DNA from: Aurantiacibacter spongiae | Lineage (GTDB): Bacteria; Pseudomonadota; Alphaproteobacteria; Sphingomonadales; Sphingomonadaceae | Direction: 5' to 3' | Assembly: GCF_003815535.1 (NCBI RefSeq) | Contig: NZ_RPFZ01000001.1 | Location: 1,364,001 to 1,428,000, forward strand | DNA: 64,000 bases | In this document: piece after piece, positions 52,154-63,395 of the stretch | How positions within the stretch are numbered: position 1 is the first letter of the stretch | Layout: each line of letters starts with the position of its first letter | The notes under the pieces: generated by a model | What the model was told of the DNA's origin: nothing | Databases searched by the model: none | Seen by the model: the letters and a program-made list of their open reading frames with translations, nothing else | Translations under genes and position numbers: made by a program

Positions 52154-52888
52154 CTACAGGTCGCCGGGATCGGGGTTGGCCTCGGCGGCGCGCTTGGCCG
52201 TCAGCCAGGCTTCGGCCTCGGCCTCCTGCGCGGCTTCGGAGGCGGCCTTTGCGGCCTCCTCGCGCTCGCGGCGCAGTTCCTCGATCAGCTTTTCCTTGTC
52301 GTCGCGCTTGTCGAGCGTGATCGACTCCTGCGTCACGGGTGTTTCCTCACCCTCCGCCGGGGCGGGCGCGCGTTTCGCCGCCTTGGCCACCGCCGCGTCC
52401 AGTTCACGCTGCGAACACAGGCCGAGCGTGACCGGATCCTTGGGCTGGATATTCTGGATGTTCCAGTGGCTGCGTTCGCGGATCGCGTTGATGGTGTTGC
52501 GCGTGGTGCCGATCAGACGGCCGATCTGCGCGTCGGATATTTCCGGGTGGTTACGCAGGATCCAGGCGATGCCGTCGGGCTTGTCCTGCCGCTTGGATAC
52601 CGGCGTGTAGCGCGGTCCCTTCGTGCGGCTGACATCGACGGGCGCCTTCTGCATCCTGAGCTGATAGGAGCTGTCGTTCTGTCCGCGCTCGATCTCCTCG
52701 TGCGTCAGCTCACCCGAATGGACGGGGTCGCGACCGGTGTACTTGGCCCCGGCGAGGTCGTCTGCCATCGCCTGCACCTCGAGGATGTGAAGACCGCAGA
52801 AGTCGGCGATCTGGGTGAAGCTCAGGGCCGTGTTGTCGACCAGCCAGCTGGCGGTCGCATGGGGCATCAGGGGCGTGGGCTGGGCCAC
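52154..52888 (-). CDS. trcR: Cell-cycle transcriptional regulator TrcR (DUF1013)
   Basis: The 244-residue protein has the DUF1013 core: WLVDNTALSFTQIADFCGLH, EVQAMADD, GRDPVHSGELT, LRNHPEISDAQIGRLIGTT and a helix-turn-helix. A charged, coiled-coil-like C-terminal tail follows (about 190-235). In Caulobacter TrcR/DUF1013 binds RNA polymerase and DNA at CtrA-controlled and other cell-cycle promoters. The GTG at 52888 is chosen as start because GGAGA lies 8 bases before it; the ATG at 52867 is an alternative. SciP is also encoded in this window. Confidence 0.92.
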   Translation of the reverse strand: MAQPTPLMPHATASWLVDNTALSFTQIADFCGLHILEVQAMADDLAGAKYTGRDPVHSGELTHEEIERGQNDSSYQLRMQKAPVDVSRTKGPRYTPVSKRQDKPDGIAWILRNHPEISDAQIGRLIGTTRNTINAIRERSHWNIQNIQPKDPVTLGLCSQRELDAAVAKAAKRAPAPAEGEETPVTQESITLDKRDDKEKLIEELRREREEAAKAASEAAQEAEAEAWLTAKRAAEANPDPGDL

Positions 52889-52904
52889 AGGCGTTTCTCC
52901 GGAT

Positions 52905-52995: not shown

Positions 52996-54039
52996 TCAGG
53001 CGGCGGCGGGTCTGACGGATACCCTCGACGCCGGCGGATCGACGGTCCGCAGGCCGGCAACGAACTGGTCGGCGCTCGCTTCCCAGGTGAAGCTGGTTCC
53101 CCGGGCATGGCAGGCGGCGCGATCGCAGCGAAGCGCGGCGGCGATGGCGTCCTCCAGCCGGTCGTTCATCGCTCCGCTGTCCGGGGAGAGGACGTCGAGC
53201 GGCCCCGGCACGGGAAAGGCGGCGACGGGCGTGCCGCAGGCCATCGCCTCGATCATCACCAGGCCGAACGTGTCGGTCCGGCTGGGAAATACGAACACGT
53301 CCGCCCCGGCATAGCACGCGGCAAGATCATCGCCCTCGCGCCGCCCCAGGAAATGCGCTTCGGGAAAGCGCCGCTGCAGGCTGTCGCGCGCCGGACCGTC
53401 GCCGATCACCACCTTCGATCCGGGATGCGTGTTGCCCAGGAACGCCTCGATGTTCTTCTCCACCGCCACGCGGCCCACGTAGATCTGGATGGGGCGCGGC
53501 AGTTCGAAGAACAGGTCCGGCGGCGCATGGTCGGGTCCGAAGGCGGTGGTGTCGACCCCGCGACCCCAGCGATGCAGCGGCCCGATTCGCTGCGCGCGCA
53601 ATTCGCGCTCGATCGTCGCAGTCGCCACCATCGTCCGCGCGGCCGGCGCGTGGAAGCGGCGGATGAACGGCCAGACAAGCTCTGGCGATAGCCCGGTCCG
53701 GCGGGCGACGTAGTCGGGAAACTGCGTGTGGTAGGCGGTGGTGAACGGCAGATTCCGCTTCACGCAGTGCCCGCGCGCCGCCCAGCCGAGCGGACCTTCG
53801 GTCGCGATATGAATGGCGTCCGGCGCGAAGGCGTCGATGCGCTTCGCCACCGCGCGGCGGCCGGCCAGCGCGAGGCGGATTTCCGGGTAGGAAGGCGCGG
53901 GAAGTGAACCGAACTGATCGGGCGAGATCACTGCGACCCGGTGGCCGCGGCTGCGCAGTTCGGCAACGATCGTCGTGAGCGTGCGGACCACGCCGTTCAT
54001 CTGCGGCAACCACGCATCCGTGACCAGGGCGATCCTCAT
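52996..54039 (-). CDS. agt: GT4 glycosyltransferase, candidate glycolipid synthase Agt
   Basis: The 347-residue protein begins MRIALVTDAWLPQMNGVVRTL, a GT-B fold with the donor-site Gly-rich loop. The HIATEGPLGWAARG, FTTAYHTQFPDYV and PSRTDTFGLVMIEAMACGTPVAAFPV blocks are typical of the GT4 group that glycosylates diacylglycerol. Directly upstream is a PlcP-like phosphoesterase gene (36-base gap). In Sinorhizobium and marine alphaproteobacteria the PlcP-Agt pair replaces phospholipids with glycolipids under phosphate starvation. The sugar donor cannot be deduced. The start after MGAGT was set at MRIALV by homology. Confidence 0.8.
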   Translation of the reverse strand: MRIALVTDAWLPQMNGVVRTLTTIVAELRSRGHRVAVISPDQFGSLPAPSYPEIRLALAGRRAVAKRIDAFAPDAIHIATEGPLGWAARGHCVKRNLPFTTAYHTQFPDYVARRTGLSPELVWPFIRRFHAPAARTMVATATIERELRAQRIGPLHRWGRGVDTTAFGPDHAPPDLFFELPRPIQIYVGRVAVEKNIEAFLGNTHPGSKVVIGDGPARDSLQRRFPEAHFLGRREGDDLAACYAGADVFVFPSRTDTFGLVMIEAMACGTPVAAFPVPGPLDVLSPDSGAMNDRLEDAIAAALRCDRAACHARGTSFTWEASADQFVAGLRTVDPPASRVSVRPAAA

Positions 54040-54075
54040 GGTTCCCGCTCCCACGCCGCCCCCCGTCGCCGCCGA

Positions 54076-55008
54076 TCAGGCCGCGAGCACCCCGGCGCGG
54101 TCCGCTTCTGCGCCGGTCGCGGCGAGCCGTTCCTCGCGCGCCGCGACTTCGGCGGGCCAGTCGAGGATTTCCATGCGACCGTCCTCGTGCTCGACCAGCG
54201 CGTTGCATCCCTCGACCCAGTCGCCATCGTTCCAGTATTCGACCTGCCGCCCCTGCGGCCCGATCATGCGGTGTTCGGCGGTATGGATATGACCGCACAC
54301 CACCCCGTCCAGCCCGCGTTCCGCCGCGGCGCGCGAGACGACTTCCTCGTAGCGGCCGATGAACTCCACCGCGTTCTTGACCCGGTGCTTGGCCGTCTTC
54401 GACAAGGACCAGTAGGGCAGGCCGAGCGTGCGGCGGGCGGCGTTGACCCAGTTGTTCGCCGCCATCAGCAGATGGTAGGCGGTATCGCCGACGAAGGCGA
54501 GCCAGCGATGCGACAGCATGACGGCGTCGAACTCGTCGCCATGCAGCACCATGAGCCGCCGCCCGTCGGCGGTGTCGTGGAAGGCCGCGCGGCGGATCTC
54601 GATACCGCCGAAGTTGAGACCGGTGAACTGCCGGAACATCTCGTCGTGATTGCCGGGGATGTACACGATCCGGGTTCCGCGCTTCGCCCGTTTGAGAAGG
54701 CGCCAGACAATGTCGTTGTGAGCGGCCGGCCAGTAGAACTTCCTCTTCAGCCGCCAGCCGTCGATGATGTCGCCCACGAGATAGAGCGTGTCCGAACCCG
54801 TGCTGTCGAGAAAGTCGATCAGGAGGTCGGCATTGCACCCCCTGGTTCCCAGGTGAATGTCCGAGATCCAGATCGTGCGATAGCGGCGACGCGGTTCGGG
54901 CGGGCGCTCGGGACGCGCCGGCTCCTGCGGCGTCAACCGTTCGAGCGACGGGACGGCGCGGACCGGTCCGGAATTGCCGACATAGCCGTCGATGTAGTCG
55001 CTGAACAT
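54076..55008 (-). CDS. plcP: PlcP-like metallophosphoesterase (phospholipid phosphodiesterase), often annotated UDP-2,3-diacylglucosamine diphosphatase
   Basis: The 310-residue calcineurin-like phosphoesterase has the metal ligands ISDIHLGTRG, LVGDIIDGW, IPGNHDE and CGHIHTAEH. The sequence WRLKRKFYWPAAHND and the TGLNFGGIEI block match the PlcP group (Sinorhizobium SMc00171 type), which cleaves phosphatidylcholine/ethanolamine during phosphate limitation, more than the LpxH group. It is upstream of the glycosyltransferase. Its promoter region has three TGAC at 11-base intervals, as in a Pho box. LpxH function remains the alternative. Confidence 0.78.
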   Translation of the reverse strand: MFSDYIDGYVGNSGPVRAVPSLERLTPQEPARPERPPEPRRRYRTIWISDIHLGTRGCNADLLIDFLDSTGSDTLYLVGDIIDGWRLKRKFYWPAAHNDIVWRLLKRAKRGTRIVYIPGNHDEMFRQFTGLNFGGIEIRRAAFHDTADGRRLMVLHGDEFDAVMLSHRWLAFVGDTAYHLLMAANNWVNAARRTLGLPYWSLSKTAKHRVKNAVEFIGRYEEVVSRAAAERGLDGVVCGHIHTAEHRMIGPQGRQVEYWNDGDWVEGCNALVEHEDGRMEILDWPAEVAAREERLAATGAEADRAGVLAA

Positions 55009-55090
55009 GGTGGGCGCCCTCGCATGGCCTGGTCCTGGCCTGGATCACCTAGCGCGCGAATGTTACGCCCCGCGCAAGGTTGCGAGTCCG

Positions 55091-55119
55091 TTTGACGACA
55101 TTGTGACCGATTGGTGACG
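55091..55119 (-). promoter_or_regulatory. Candidate Pho box upstream of the plcP-agt-like operon
   Basis: TGAC occurs at 55093, 55104 and 55115, exactly 11 bases apart. On the minus strand this reads as three consecutive 11-base units, GTCACCAATCG, GTCACAATGTC and GTCAAACGGAC. PhoB boxes are built of 11-bp direct repeats of a TGTCA(T/C)-like core, so layout and core agree, though the cores are not perfect. It lies about 83 bases upstream of the plcP start in the 55009-55136 gap, which holds no other clear signal. Confidence 0.55.
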
Positions 55120-59019: not shown

Positions 59020-60747
59020 ATGACGCTTCGCCAACTCACCATCGTTCTGGCGGCGGGGGCCTCGGCCCTCGCCGCTTCGGTATGCGCGCAGGAACACGCC
59101 CCGCCGCTCGCCGAACGAACCGGCGAAAGCGACCTGCCGCTCGAAGGCGCGAGGGCGGGCGAGCATATCGAACACGCCTCGTTGTCGATCCTGGTCGATC
59201 CGGCCCACCGGCAGATTGCCGGGGCGATACTCTACCGCATCGTCGCCACCGCTCCGCTGGACCGGCTGGCGCTCGATCTCGACCCGCGCTTCGCCATCTC
59301 CGACGTCTCGGTTGACGACACGGCCATCGCGCCCGGCCGGTGGCGCAATCCCGACGGGCTGCTCACGATCGATCTGCCGCGCCCGCTTGCCGCCGGGGAC
59401 ACGGCGATACTGGCGCTGCGCTATCGCGGCGCGCCGCATGTCGCCGCCAATCCGCCGTGGGAAGGCGGAATGACCTGGTCCGAAACACCGGACGGGCAGC
59501 CCTGGATCGCCAGCACCGTGCAGGGCGAGGGGTGCGACCTGTTCTGGCCCTGCATCGATTCCTCCGCGCACCGGATCGACACGATGGACCTGCTCGTCAC
59601 CGTCCCGGAGGCGCTGACGGCGGCGGGCAATGGCCGACTGATCGGCACGACGGACAATGACGACGGCACGCGGACCTTCCACTGGCGGGCGAGAAATCCG
59701 TCGAATTACGGAATCGCGCTGCAAATAGCGCCCTACGAACTGGCCCGGCGCGACTACGCCAGCCGCTTCGGCAATATCGTGCCGATCCGGTTCTGGCACC
59801 TGCCCGGGCATGACGACGGGGTGAACCGCCTGCTGGGGGAAATGGAGGACTTCCTCGCCTTTTTCGAAAGCACGGTCGGCCCCTACCCTTTCGCCGACGA
59901 GAAGGCCGGCATTGCCGAGACCCCGCATCTCGGCATGGAACACCAGACCATCAATGCCTACGGCAACGGTTTCGCGCGCGATCCGCTGGGGTATGACTGG
60001 TTGCTCCATCACGAATTCGCGCATGAGTGGTTCGGCAACCAGCTGACCCATGCCAGCATCAACCACATGTGGTTGCACGAAGGGCTGGGCACGTGGATGC
60101 AGCCGCTCTATCTCGAACGCACGCGCGGTCGCATGCAGTACGATGCCGAAATGTGGCGCTACCGCACGCAGATCGCCAGCCGCGTACCGCTCGTTTCGCC
60201 GGACGCCGTGCGGCCCGATTACAATGACAGCGACGCGGGTTGGGGCACCGACATCTACTACAAGGGCGCCTGGGTGCTGCACACGCTGCGCCATCTGGTC
60301 GGGGACGAGGTGCTGTTTCCGGCCATTACCCGGCTGGTCTACGGCACGGACGATCCGCGCCCCGGCGCGATCCGGCCGGTGACCCGCACGACCGACGATT
60401 TTCGCCGCATTCTCGAAGACAAGTCGGGCCGCGACCTGCGCTGGTTCTTCGATGCCTATTTCACCCGGGCGGACCTGCCTCGCCTCGCATCCGCTCGCGA
60501 AGGCGGGGATCTGCTGCTCGAATGGCAGACACCCTCCCGATATCCGTTCGAAATGCCCGTCGAGGTGGAGATCGACGGAAACCGCGTGTCGGTGCCCATG
60601 ACGGGCGGCCGCGCGAAGCTCGCGCTGGACAGTGGGGATCGCCATGTCCTCCTCGATCCGGACAACCGCATATTGAGGGCCGATGACGCCATTGCCGCAT
60701 GGCGTGCGGCGCAGGAGGAACGGCGGGAGGCAGCCGCGGCCGAGTAG
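59020..60747 (+). CDS. Exported M1-family metallopeptidase
   Basis: The 575-residue protein has a signal peptide (about 1-24) and an M1 fold with GMEHQTINAYG in place of the GAMEN motif. The zinc motif HEFAH is at 331-335, with the downstream Glu in LHEGLGTW. The GMEHQ variant is typical of one exported M1 branch. It lacks the extra C-terminal domain of PepN, so it is shorter. It would cut peptides in the periplasm or outside. It starts 33 bases after clpA. Confidence 0.93.
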   Translation: MTLRQLTIVLAAGASALAASVCAQEHAPPLAERTGESDLPLEGARAGEHIEHASLSILVDPAHRQIAGAILYRIVATAPLDRLALDLDPRFAISDVSVDDTAIAPGRWRNPDGLLTIDLPRPLAAGDTAILALRYRGAPHVAANPPWEGGMTWSETPDGQPWIASTVQGEGCDLFWPCIDSSAHRIDTMDLLVTVPEALTAAGNGRLIGTTDNDDGTRTFHWRARNPSNYGIALQIAPYELARRDYASRFGNIVPIRFWHLPGHDDGVNRLLGEMEDFLAFFESTVGPYPFADEKAGIAETPHLGMEHQTINAYGNGFARDPLGYDWLLHHEFAHEWFGNQLTHASINHMWLHEGLGTWMQPLYLERTRGRMQYDAEMWRYRTQIASRVPLVSPDAVRPDYNDSDAGWGTDIYYKGAWVLHTLRHLVGDEVLFPAITRLVYGTDDPRPGAIRPVTRTTDDFRRILEDKSGRDLRWFFDAYFTRADLPRLASAREGGDLLLEWQTPSRYPFEMPVEVEIDGNRVSVPMTGGRAKLALDSGDRHVLLDPDNRILRADDAIAAWRAAQEERREAAAAE

Positions 60748-60782
60748 GAACGAACCGGGCACGCCGCCGGTTCATCCATGCG

Positions 60783-61787
60783 ATGAGCGCCGCCTTTTCC
60801 TGGATCAAGCCCGACCCGCACGGCATCTACATTCCGCCCGCCGATTGCTGGATCGACCCCTCGAAGCCGGTCGACAAGGCACTGGTCACGCACGGCCATG
60901 CCGACCACGCGCGCGGCGGGCACGGCAAGACCGTGGCCACGCCCGAGACGCTGGCGATCATGGAACTGCGCTACAACACGCGGGAAAACACGCGGCCCGT
61001 GGAATATGGCGAGACGGTACGGCTCGATGGCGGGGTCGATGCGACCTACATTCCCGCCGGCCACGTGCTCGGCAGCGCGCAGATCCTGCTCGAACATGCC
61101 GGGGAGAGGGTTGTCGTGACAGGCGATTACAAGCGCCGGCCCGATCCGACCTGTCCGCCCTTCGAAGTGACGCCGTGCGATATCTTCATCACCGAGGCGA
61201 CTTTCGGCCTGCCGGTGTTCACGCATCCGCCCATCGCGCAGGAAATGGCCAAGCTGACCGACCGCCTCGCCGCCCACCCCGATCGCTGCGTCCTCGTCGG
61301 CGCCTATGCCCTCGGCAAGGCGCAGCGCGTGATCGCGGAATTGCGCGCGGCCGGGCATGGCGAACCGATCTATCTCCACGGCGCGATGGAAAAGATGTGC
61401 CGGCTGTACGAGGAATTCGGCGTCGATCTTGGCGAACTGCGCCTCGTTTCCGATCACGCGAAGGACGATATGCGCGGTTCGGTAGTGGTGTGCCCGCCCT
61501 CCGCCCTCAACGACCGTTGGAGCCGCCGGCTGCCCGACCCCATCACGGCCATGGCGAGCGGCTGGATGCGCGTGCGCCAGCGCGCCCGTCAGCGCAATGT
61601 CGAGCTGCCGCTGGTGATTTCCGACCACGCCGACTGGCACGAGCTGACGCGCACCGTGGAAGAGGTCGACCCGCAGGAAACGTGGATCACCCACGGCCGC
61701 GAGGAAGCGCTGCTGCGCTGGTGCCAGCTGGGCCAGCGGCGCGCCCGCGCACTGGCGATGGTGGGGTATGAGGACGAGGATGACTGA
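60783..61787 (+). CDS. Ligase-associated DNA exonuclease (MBL fold, beta-CASP)
   Basis: The 334-residue metallo-beta-lactamase/beta-CASP nuclease has the metal motif VTHGHADHARGG, followed by AGHVLGSAQILLE, VVTGDYKRRPDP and ISDHADWHELT. It is encoded 13 bases before an ATP-dependent DNA ligase, the pair that defines the ligase-associated family. It probably resects or trims DNA ends in repair. The start MSAAFSW follows a purine-poor leader; the upstream frame is a shadow. Confidence 0.92.
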   Translation: MSAAFSWIKPDPHGIYIPPADCWIDPSKPVDKALVTHGHADHARGGHGKTVATPETLAIMELRYNTRENTRPVEYGETVRLDGGVDATYIPAGHVLGSAQILLEHAGERVVVTGDYKRRPDPTCPPFEVTPCDIFITEATFGLPVFTHPPIAQEMAKLTDRLAAHPDRCVLVGAYALGKAQRVIAELRAAGHGEPIYLHGAMEKMCRLYEEFGVDLGELRLVSDHAKDDMRGSVVVCPPSALNDRWSRRLPDPITAMASGWMRVRQRARQRNVELPLVISDHADWHELTRTVEEVDPQETWITHGREEALLRWCQLGQRRARALAMVGYEDEDD

Positions 61788-61799
61788 GGCGGGCCGCTG

Positions 61800-63395
61800 A
61801 TGGAAGAGTTCGCCGCCCTCGTCGATGCGCTGGTCTATACCCGTTCGCGCAACGAGAAGCTGCGCCTGATCGCGGAGTATCTGCAGGCCACCCCCGATCC
61901 CGATCGCGGGTGGGCGCTGGCGGCACTGACGGACGGCCTGGATTTTCCGGCGGTCAAGTCCAGCACCATTCGCAACCTGCTCAAGGAGCGGGTCGATCCG
62001 GTACTGTGGACGCTCAGTCGCGATTTCGTCGGCGATACGGCGGAAACGGCCAGCTTCCTGTGGCCCGATCCGCCGGGCGAGGCCGCGCCGCCGCCGTCCG
62101 TGTCCGAAGCCGTGGAGGCCCTGTCCGGCATGACCCGTGCCAGCGTGACGGGCGAATTGCCGCGCCTGCTCGACCGGCTCGACAGCTCGGGCCGCTACGC
62201 CCTGTTCAAGATCGCGACCGGCGGTATGCGCGTGGGCGTGTCGGGTCGCCTCGCCAAGGTCGCCTTCGCACAGGCCTTCGGCGTCGATGTCGACCGGGTG
62301 GAGGAATACTGGCACGCGCTCGAACCGCCCTTCGCCGACCTGTTCGCCTGGGCGGCTGACGGCGCGGAGCCGCCCGATACCGAGAACATGCCGCTGTTCC
62401 GTCCGTTCATGCTGGCCCACCCGCTCGAAGACCTGGTGGTCGACCTGTCCGACTATGCCGCCGAATGGAAATGGGATGGCATCCGCGTGCAGATGGTCCA
62501 TGTGGCTGGCGAAACACGCGTTTACTCGCGCTCGGGCGATGATATCTCGGGCACATTCCCCGAAATGGTCCACGCCCTCGATTTTCCCGCCGTGCTGGAC
62601 GGCGAATTGCTAGTGCGGGGCAGTCACCAGGGCGGCGAGGCGGGGGGAGCGGCGAGCTTCAACGCGCTTCAGCAGCGGCTGGGGCGCAAGACCGTCAGCA
62701 GGAAGATGCTGGCGCAATCGCCTGCGTTCGTGCGACTCTACGACGTGCTGATGCTGGACGGGAAAGACCTGCGCCCCCTCCCCTGGACCGAACGGCGAGC
62801 GGCGCTCGAAAAGTTGATGGCGCGCCTTCCCGCGACGCATTTCGACCTGTCGCAACTGGTCGAGGCACGCGATTTCGATCAGCTGGCCACAATCCGCGAG
62901 GGGGCACGCGACGATGCGATCGAGGGGCTCATGCTCAAGCGGCGCGATTCCAGCTACGTGCCGGGTCGCAAGACCGGCCTGTGGTACAAGTGGAAGCGCG
63001 ATCCGCTGCTCGTCGATTGCGTGCTGATGTACGCCCAGCGCGGCAGCGGCAAGCGCTCCAGCTTCTTTTCCGACTACACCTTCGGCTGCTGGGACGGCGA
63101 CCCCGACGAGGGGGCGGATCTGCTGCCGGTGGGCAAGGCCTATTCGGGCTTCACCGACGAGGAGCTGAAGAAGCTCGACCGGCACGTGCGCCAGAATACC
63201 GTCAACCGCTTCGGCCCGGTCCGCGAGACCGACAAGAGCCTGGTGTTCGAGGTTGCGTTCGATTCGGTCCACGAAAGCAAGCGCCACAAGAGCGGCCTCG
63301 CCATGCGCTTCCCGCGCATCCACCGGATCAGGTGGGACAAGCCGGTCCATGAAGCGGACCGGATCTCGGCGCTCAAAGCGCTCATCCGCGATTAG
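61800..63395 (+). CDS. ATP-dependent DNA ligase
   Basis: The 531-residue protein has the adenylation-site Lys224 in EWKWDGIRVQ (motif I, KXDG-type), then motif III-like RVYSRSGDDIS, motif IV EGLMLKRRD and motif V LWYKWKRD. The N-terminal DNA-binding domain is about 200 residues. It is a non-replicative ATP-dependent ligase (the bacterial ligase-associated system), not NAD-dependent LigA. The associated helicase and PdeM phosphoesterase genes that often complete this operon are not next to it. Confidence 0.94.
   Translation: MEEFAALVDALVYTRSRNEKLRLIAEYLQATPDPDRGWALAALTDGLDFPAVKSSTIRNLLKERVDPVLWTLSRDFVGDTAETASFLWPDPPGEAAPPPSVSEAVEALSGMTRASVTGELPRLLDRLDSSGRYALFKIATGGMRVGVSGRLAKVAFAQAFGVDVDRVEEYWHALEPPFADLFAWAADGAEPPDTENMPLFRPFMLAHPLEDLVVDLSDYAAEWKWDGIRVQMVHVAGETRVYSRSGDDISGTFPEMVHALDFPAVLDGELLVRGSHQGGEAGGAASFNALQQRLGRKTVSRKMLAQSPAFVRLYDVLMLDGKDLRPLPWTERRAALEKLMARLPATHFDLSQLVEARDFDQLATIREGARDDAIEGLMLKRRDSSYVPGRKTGLWYKWKRDPLLVDCVLMYAQRGSGKRSSFFSDYTFGCWDGDPDEGADLLPVGKAYSGFTDEELKKLDRHVRQNTVNRFGPVRETDKSLVFEVAFDSVHESKRHKSGLAMRFPRIHRIRWDKPVHEADRISALKALIRD

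Follow-up and report, generated by a model that had tools for sequence, protein, structure and literature searches.

The 64,000-nt window analysed here (positions 1,364,001-1,428,000 of contig NZ_RPFZ01000001.1, assembly GCF_003815535.1, Aurantiacibacter spongiae) contains a metallophosphoesterase gene followed by a gene for a GT4 glycosyltransferase. The question raised by this locus is whether the two genes form a PlcP-Agt pair that exchanges phospholipids for glycolipids under the control of PhoB, or whether the first gene encodes LpxH, an enzyme of lipid A synthesis, with the glycosyltransferase an incidental neighbour. The features of the locus are as follows.

plcP, 54076-55008, minus strand: metallophosphoesterase of 310 aa (PF00149, 41 bits), predicted phospholipase C acting on glycerophospholipids.
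agt, 52996-54039, minus strand: GT4 glycosyltransferase of 347 aa counted from ATG (PF13439/PF13692), predicted diacylglycerol glycosyltransferase.
TAGG, 55048-55051, minus strand: position of a CATAGG common in relatives; possible -10 element, judged from the alignment.
GTAACA, 55061-55066, minus strand: position of the best-kept array element of relatives; the window reads CGTAACA.
Pho-box-like array, 55093-55118, minus strand: three GTCA spaced by 11 bp when read along the genes' strand (plus strand: TGAC).

As the preliminary description of this DNA had stated, both open reading frames are found on the minus strand, plcP first and agt second, and are separated by 36 nt, provided that the glycosyltransferase starts at the ATG at 54039; a longer, mechanically called frame begins with GTG at 54054. 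The three TGAC start at 55093, 55104 and 55115 on the plus strand, a spacing of exactly 11 bp that agrees with that description, and read as GTCA they are located 85-110 nt upstream of the plcP start codon. Downstream, agt is adjoined on the same strand by the gene for a TrcR (PF06242) cell-cycle regulator (52154-52891). Elsewhere in the window (60699-63395), a gene of the metallo-beta-lactamase fold comes immediately before one for an ATP-dependent DNA ligase, and we take the two to resemble a ligase-associated DNA repair pair.

Several observations could be read in favour of LpxH. The window phosphoesterase is the genome's best match to the LpxH model, its nearest solved structures are LpxH both by sequence and by fold, and its relatives carry the name 'UDP-2,3-diacylglucosamine diphosphatase' in public records. 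The expectation that routine annotation would call it an LpxH-like enzyme is therefore borne out by these names, but not by NCBI's two LpxH models, against which it scores 40.9 bits (cut-off 134) and 32 bits (cut-off 190), far below both cut-offs. The protein also has GNHD where LpxH has GNRD. In the LpxH structure paper (PMC5016852), as far as its accessible text goes, arginine at this position is described for LpxH alone, with histidine in the other enzymes of the superfamily. Among the best 80 of 440 relatives (described below), GNHDE is conserved in 80/80 and GNRD in 0/80. One Bacteroides protein annotated as LpxH also carries GNHD, so an LpxH label by itself is not informative. The structure model of the phosphoesterase is of moderate quality (pLDDT 72.9), and its nearest folds, which are LpxH at TM-scores of 0.45-0.48 by query length, indicate in such a model a shared fold only.

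Phylogenetic placement points in the same direction. In a tree of 31 rows, the five LpxH sequences form a single clade (96/92), and the window protein falls outside it, on the PlcP side (100/99), as the PlcP interpretation had predicted. The AU test against a grouping of the window protein with LpxH gives a moderate p of 0.032, in a tree with long branches that resolves little of the branch order inside the PlcP side and does not place the window protein beyond its own family. The rows from S. meliloti and P. aeruginosa were labelled as PlcP on the basis of gene neighbourhood and general background. The S. meliloti protein is 51.3% identical to the window phosphoesterase over residues 45-284, and its gene lies near an acyl-homoserine-lactone synthase gene and a LuxR-type gene, in what is presumably the studied SmPlcP locus. 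That locus differs from the window in its next listed downstream gene, an MFS transporter rather than a glycosyltransferase.

The rest of the lipid A pathway was searched for in the source genome, which is 99.97% complete. Family-model searches of this genome gave no match to LpxC or LpxB, and none above cut-off to LpxI or LpxH; in the control sets, the models score above cut-off in 4/14 (LpxC), 4/14 (LpxB), 1/14 (LpxI) and 1/14 (LpxH) genomes. An LpxH role would thus have no pathway to serve. For the same reason, the absence of a second LpxH, which the preliminary description had regarded as grounds for abandoning the PlcP interpretation, does not refute it, since LpxC and LpxB are also unmatched and LpxI and LpxH do not rise above cut-off. 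Four lipid A families without an above-cut-off match are also consistent with an LPS-less outer membrane; LPS-less sphingomonads, according to the accessible part of PMC6445935, use glycosphingolipids instead. The candidate identity as LpxH was rejected on the histidine of GNHD, the scores below the LpxH cut-offs, the position outside the LpxH clade and the missing above-cut-off matches to lipid A families. That the protein is nevertheless a lipid A enzyme sitting next to a glycosyltransferase by accident is hardly credible, and the sequence evidence supports its identification as a PlcP and not an LpxH.

The pairing of the two genes is widely conserved. In a scan of contigs from public genomes, 457 stretches matched and 440 of them encode a relative; the best 80 were retained, which by record title come from Erythrobacteraceae genera, from other Sphingomonadales or, with no finer label, from Alphaproteobacteria. 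A glycosyltransferase gene follows plcP in 79 of these best 80 of 440 relatives, and the sequence of the remaining one (L078) ends 121 nt after the match. It is also present in 29/29 loci of a second set, which shares at least two loci with the first. Other arrangements were also seen: in Mitsuaria sp. 7 (L103), the plcP relative adjoins the polyphosphate kinase gene ppk1 and no glycosyltransferase is found there, and on plasmids of Fuscovulum and Pannonibacter (L108 and L110) a PlcP-like gene precedes one annotated as ceramide glucosyltransferase.

The glycosyltransferase itself carries the published features of the Agt family. The residues and motifs of GTcp, the enzyme of Candidatus Pelagibacter HTCC7211, were taken from the accessible text of PMC8231724, and the window protein was compared with them, and with the Agrobacterium Agt described there, by published residue numbers. 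Both UDP-sugar motifs are present (GRVAVEKN at 189 and FPSRTDTFG at 251), as is the H104-D256 dyad, and most of the tested residues occur at the same numbers as in GTcp (G16, G82, G85, H104, R190, K195, D256, T257, F258, G259 and E264). At numbers 163 and 320 themselves, the window protein has D and E; the likely counterparts of GTcp R163 and W320, judged from the alignment, are shifted by a few positions (a WGRG stretch and W319). GRVAxEKN is kept in 66/79 and FPSxTDTFG in 78/79 of the relatives. Plasmid-borne glycosyltransferases encoded beside plcP share 58.5% identity with the window protein in Sphingomonas parapaucimobilis and 50.5% in Pseudomonas aeruginosa. A homologue from Citromicrobium has been placed in the Agt clade, as PMC8231724 states in its accessible part. 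These comparisons support the assignment of an Agt-like enzyme, predicted to be a diacylglycerol glycosyltransferase. The earlier proposal of a PlcP-Agt pair is supported by the PlcP-side placement, GNHD, the Agt motifs and the conserved pairing.

An alternative acceptor deserves consideration. Instead of diacylglycerol, the glycosyltransferase could use ceramide and be an Sgt1-type glucuronosylceramide synthase, given that LPS-less sphingomonads use glycosphingolipids. The lack of above-cut-off matches to the four lipid A families would fit such a role, as would the glycosphingolipid that Caulobacter makes under phosphate starvation (PMC6445935, accessible text). However, the GTcp/Agt motifs and residues are present in the window protein, agt adjoins plcP, whose family yields diacylglycerol, and the Novosphingobium glycosyltransferase network described in the available part of PMC13318209 separates an Agt-like from an Sgt1-like cluster, Sgt1 being known here by description. 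We consider a ceramide enzyme improbable, and diacylglycerol stays the predicted acceptor. A further GT4 paralogue encoded in the same genome (L164, 2268906-2269814) is 33% identical to agt, has TETFG in place of TDTFG and lies some 4 kb away from a gene for an NDP-sugar dehydrogenase; it is possibly another lipid glycosyltransferase. The source genome has four NDP-sugar dehydrogenase family matches above cut-off, which do not settle the donor. Nor can the sugar be read from homology, because P. aeruginosa Agt1 is restricted to UDP-glucose, whereas GTcp uses different UDP-sugars to produce three glycolipids.

The second part of the question is whether the pair is controlled by PhoB. Direct repeats at 11-bp spacing, as in a Pho box, lie upstream of plcP on the genes' strand. 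The exact GTCA triple occurs once in the 64-kb window and once in the 2.86-Mb genome, and 0/20,000 dinucleotide-shuffled versions of the 128-nt intergenic stretch contained it on either strand. A looser pattern, three copies of any 4-mer at one constant spacing of 8 to 14, is present in 2.8% of 5,000 shuffled sequences, which makes the triple alone suggestive and not decisive. Compared with the two-unit consensus CTGTCATN4CTGTCAT, the window agrees at only 9/14 positions (shuffle P 0.12); the same consensus reaches P<=0.05 in 36/80 relatives. The case for a PhoB-type promoter, itself a prediction, is made by comparative evidence and not by the window motif alone.

The upstream regions of the relatives can be aligned, and they reveal a degenerate array of 11-bp units, of which the best kept is CTGTAACA. 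TGTAACA is found in 50/80 upstream stretches of 200 nt, versus 0/80 stretches taken 600-800 nt upstream. In the 56 upstream regions left after thinning 81, TGTCA-like pairs on the sense strand number 61 at 11 bp, versus a mean of 6.0 at other spacings, and 39 at 22 bp, with lesser peaks at 8 bp (20) and 13 bp (24); farther away, 400-600 nt upstream, the number at 11 bp is 0. On the opposite strand, the 56 regions likewise show a peak at 11 bp (45 versus 7.6). Three or more units chained at 11 bp are present in 18/56 regions on the sense strand and 4/56 on the opposite strand, and sense-strand chains at spacings of 8-10 and 12-14 in at most 1/56.

The form of the array, however, is not that of the window. 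The exact GTCA triple was found in 0/80 upstream stretches of the relatives, and a GTCA pair at 11 bp in 5/80 within 200 nt and 10/80 within 300 nt. The pair is kept in two of three other loci of the window's genus. As we read the alignment, the window triple appears to stand in another register, offset by 8, than the relatives' array, whose last unit would correspond to the window's GTAACA at 55061-55066. In 4/80 relatives (L045, L048, L056 and L084), the genes' strand carries three TGAC spaced by 11 bp, an orientation opposite to that of the window's triple; there, CTGAC units lead into CCGTCA or TTGTCA, resembling the site at phoB in the source genome. Of the Pho-box architecture proposed in the preliminary description, the 11-bp periodicity is thus shared by the relatives, as a degenerate array, and similar sites occur at phoB and at a porin gene, but the exact triple is not shared.

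A genome-wide search with the repeat, which had been proposed as a check, gives a divided answer. Sites within one mismatch of the GTCA triple number 5 in the genome, and the reversed-pattern control also gives 5, so the count in itself proves nothing; the two-unit pattern gives 16 sites versus 21 in the control. The number of matches as proof of a Pho regulon was rejected, since neither count rises above its control. What stands is the location of particular sites. One of the four other triple-like sites precedes phoB, between phoU (TIGR02135, 218 bits, cut-off 130) and phoB (TIGR02154, 342 bits, cut-off 296), with PstB just before, and another lies between the gene for a PhoR-like kinase (TIGR02966, 263 bits, short of the 334-bit cut-off) and a Porin_O_P gene (215 bits). 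The chance of at least two of the four sites falling inside this 8.9-kb block is about 6e-5, with block borders chosen after the sites had been seen. Among the 16 two-unit matches, 3 are at the pho locus and the other 13 have no phosphate gene evident by eye.

These counts, together with the weak consensus match of the window and the absence of its exact triple from the 80 relatives, would suit a genuine plcP-agt pair without PhoB control, in which the TGAC triple is a product of chance or the site of another regulator. Against this are the similar sites before phoB and the Porin_O_P gene, the 11-bp array upstream of plcP in the relatives, and the phosphate regulation of plcP reported for the strains of PMC4796936 in its accessible text. 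We regard a pair outside PhoB control as unlikely, and control by PhoB as the better account of the upstream array.

The closest known systems share this organization. Erythrobacter sp. NAP1, compared here by its published description, has plcP with an agt homologue downstream, as in the window, and several of the window's relatives are also named Erythrobacter. The accessible part of that description (PMC4796936) reports that plcP was induced by phosphate starvation in the strains tested, NAP1 among them, that MGDG, GADG and DGTS rise in NAP1 under phosphate limitation, and that plcP clusters have putative Pho boxes. The window's genome differs in that BtaA has no match above cut-off in it, so that DGTS is not expected by the BtaA route, and a DGTS route as in NAP1 was rejected on this ground. 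In P. aeruginosa, PA3219-PA3218 (PlcP-Agt1) likewise consists of plcP directly followed by a glycosyltransferase gene, and a Pho box has been reported; Agt1 takes only UDP-glucose there, and a second enzyme, Agt2, makes GADG (PMC8528852, accessible text). A plasmid-borne pair of this species is 52.7% (PlcP) and 50.5% (glycosyltransferase) identical to that of the window, whereas the species differs in having a true LpxH as well. Our search of the literature on PlcP, Pho boxes and glycolipids found no paper that uses the word sphingomonad, and among the papers listed for Erythrobacter lipids only PMC4796936 names Erythrobacter.

Gene order, family placement, conserved residues, conservation of the pair and the similar sites at phoB and the porin gene make it very probable that the locus is a PhoB-controlled plcP-agt operon that swaps membrane phospholipid for glycolipid at low phosphate. 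When phosphate is short, phosphorylated PhoB would bind the upstream 11-bp repeats and turn on plcP and agt. PlcP, by analogy with its family, would then cleave membrane glycerophospholipids into diacylglycerol and a phosphate-bearing head group, and Agt may use a UDP-sugar to attach glucose and/or glucuronic acid to this diacylglycerol, yielding MGDG and/or GADG. PhoB binding, induction, the substrates and the sugar are what we infer from these observations.

A bolder version of this scheme is that the Agt-like enzyme serves as the main source of phosphate-free lipid, glycosylating both diacylglycerol and ceramide in a genome in which lipid A genes were not found and BtaA has no match above cut-off. 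This is a long shot; if true, such a dual-acceptor Agt would connect the glycosphingolipids used in place of LPS with the Pho response.

The plcP-agt pathway is already known, including in a relative, and the locus is an ordinary new example for its family. PlcP was found in 104/196 sampled genomes of the order, and in four of five same-genus genomes among those listed, the window's own included; it is common but patchy across this bacterial order. The analysis assigns a well-supported function to a gene whose relatives public records name after a lipid A enzyme.
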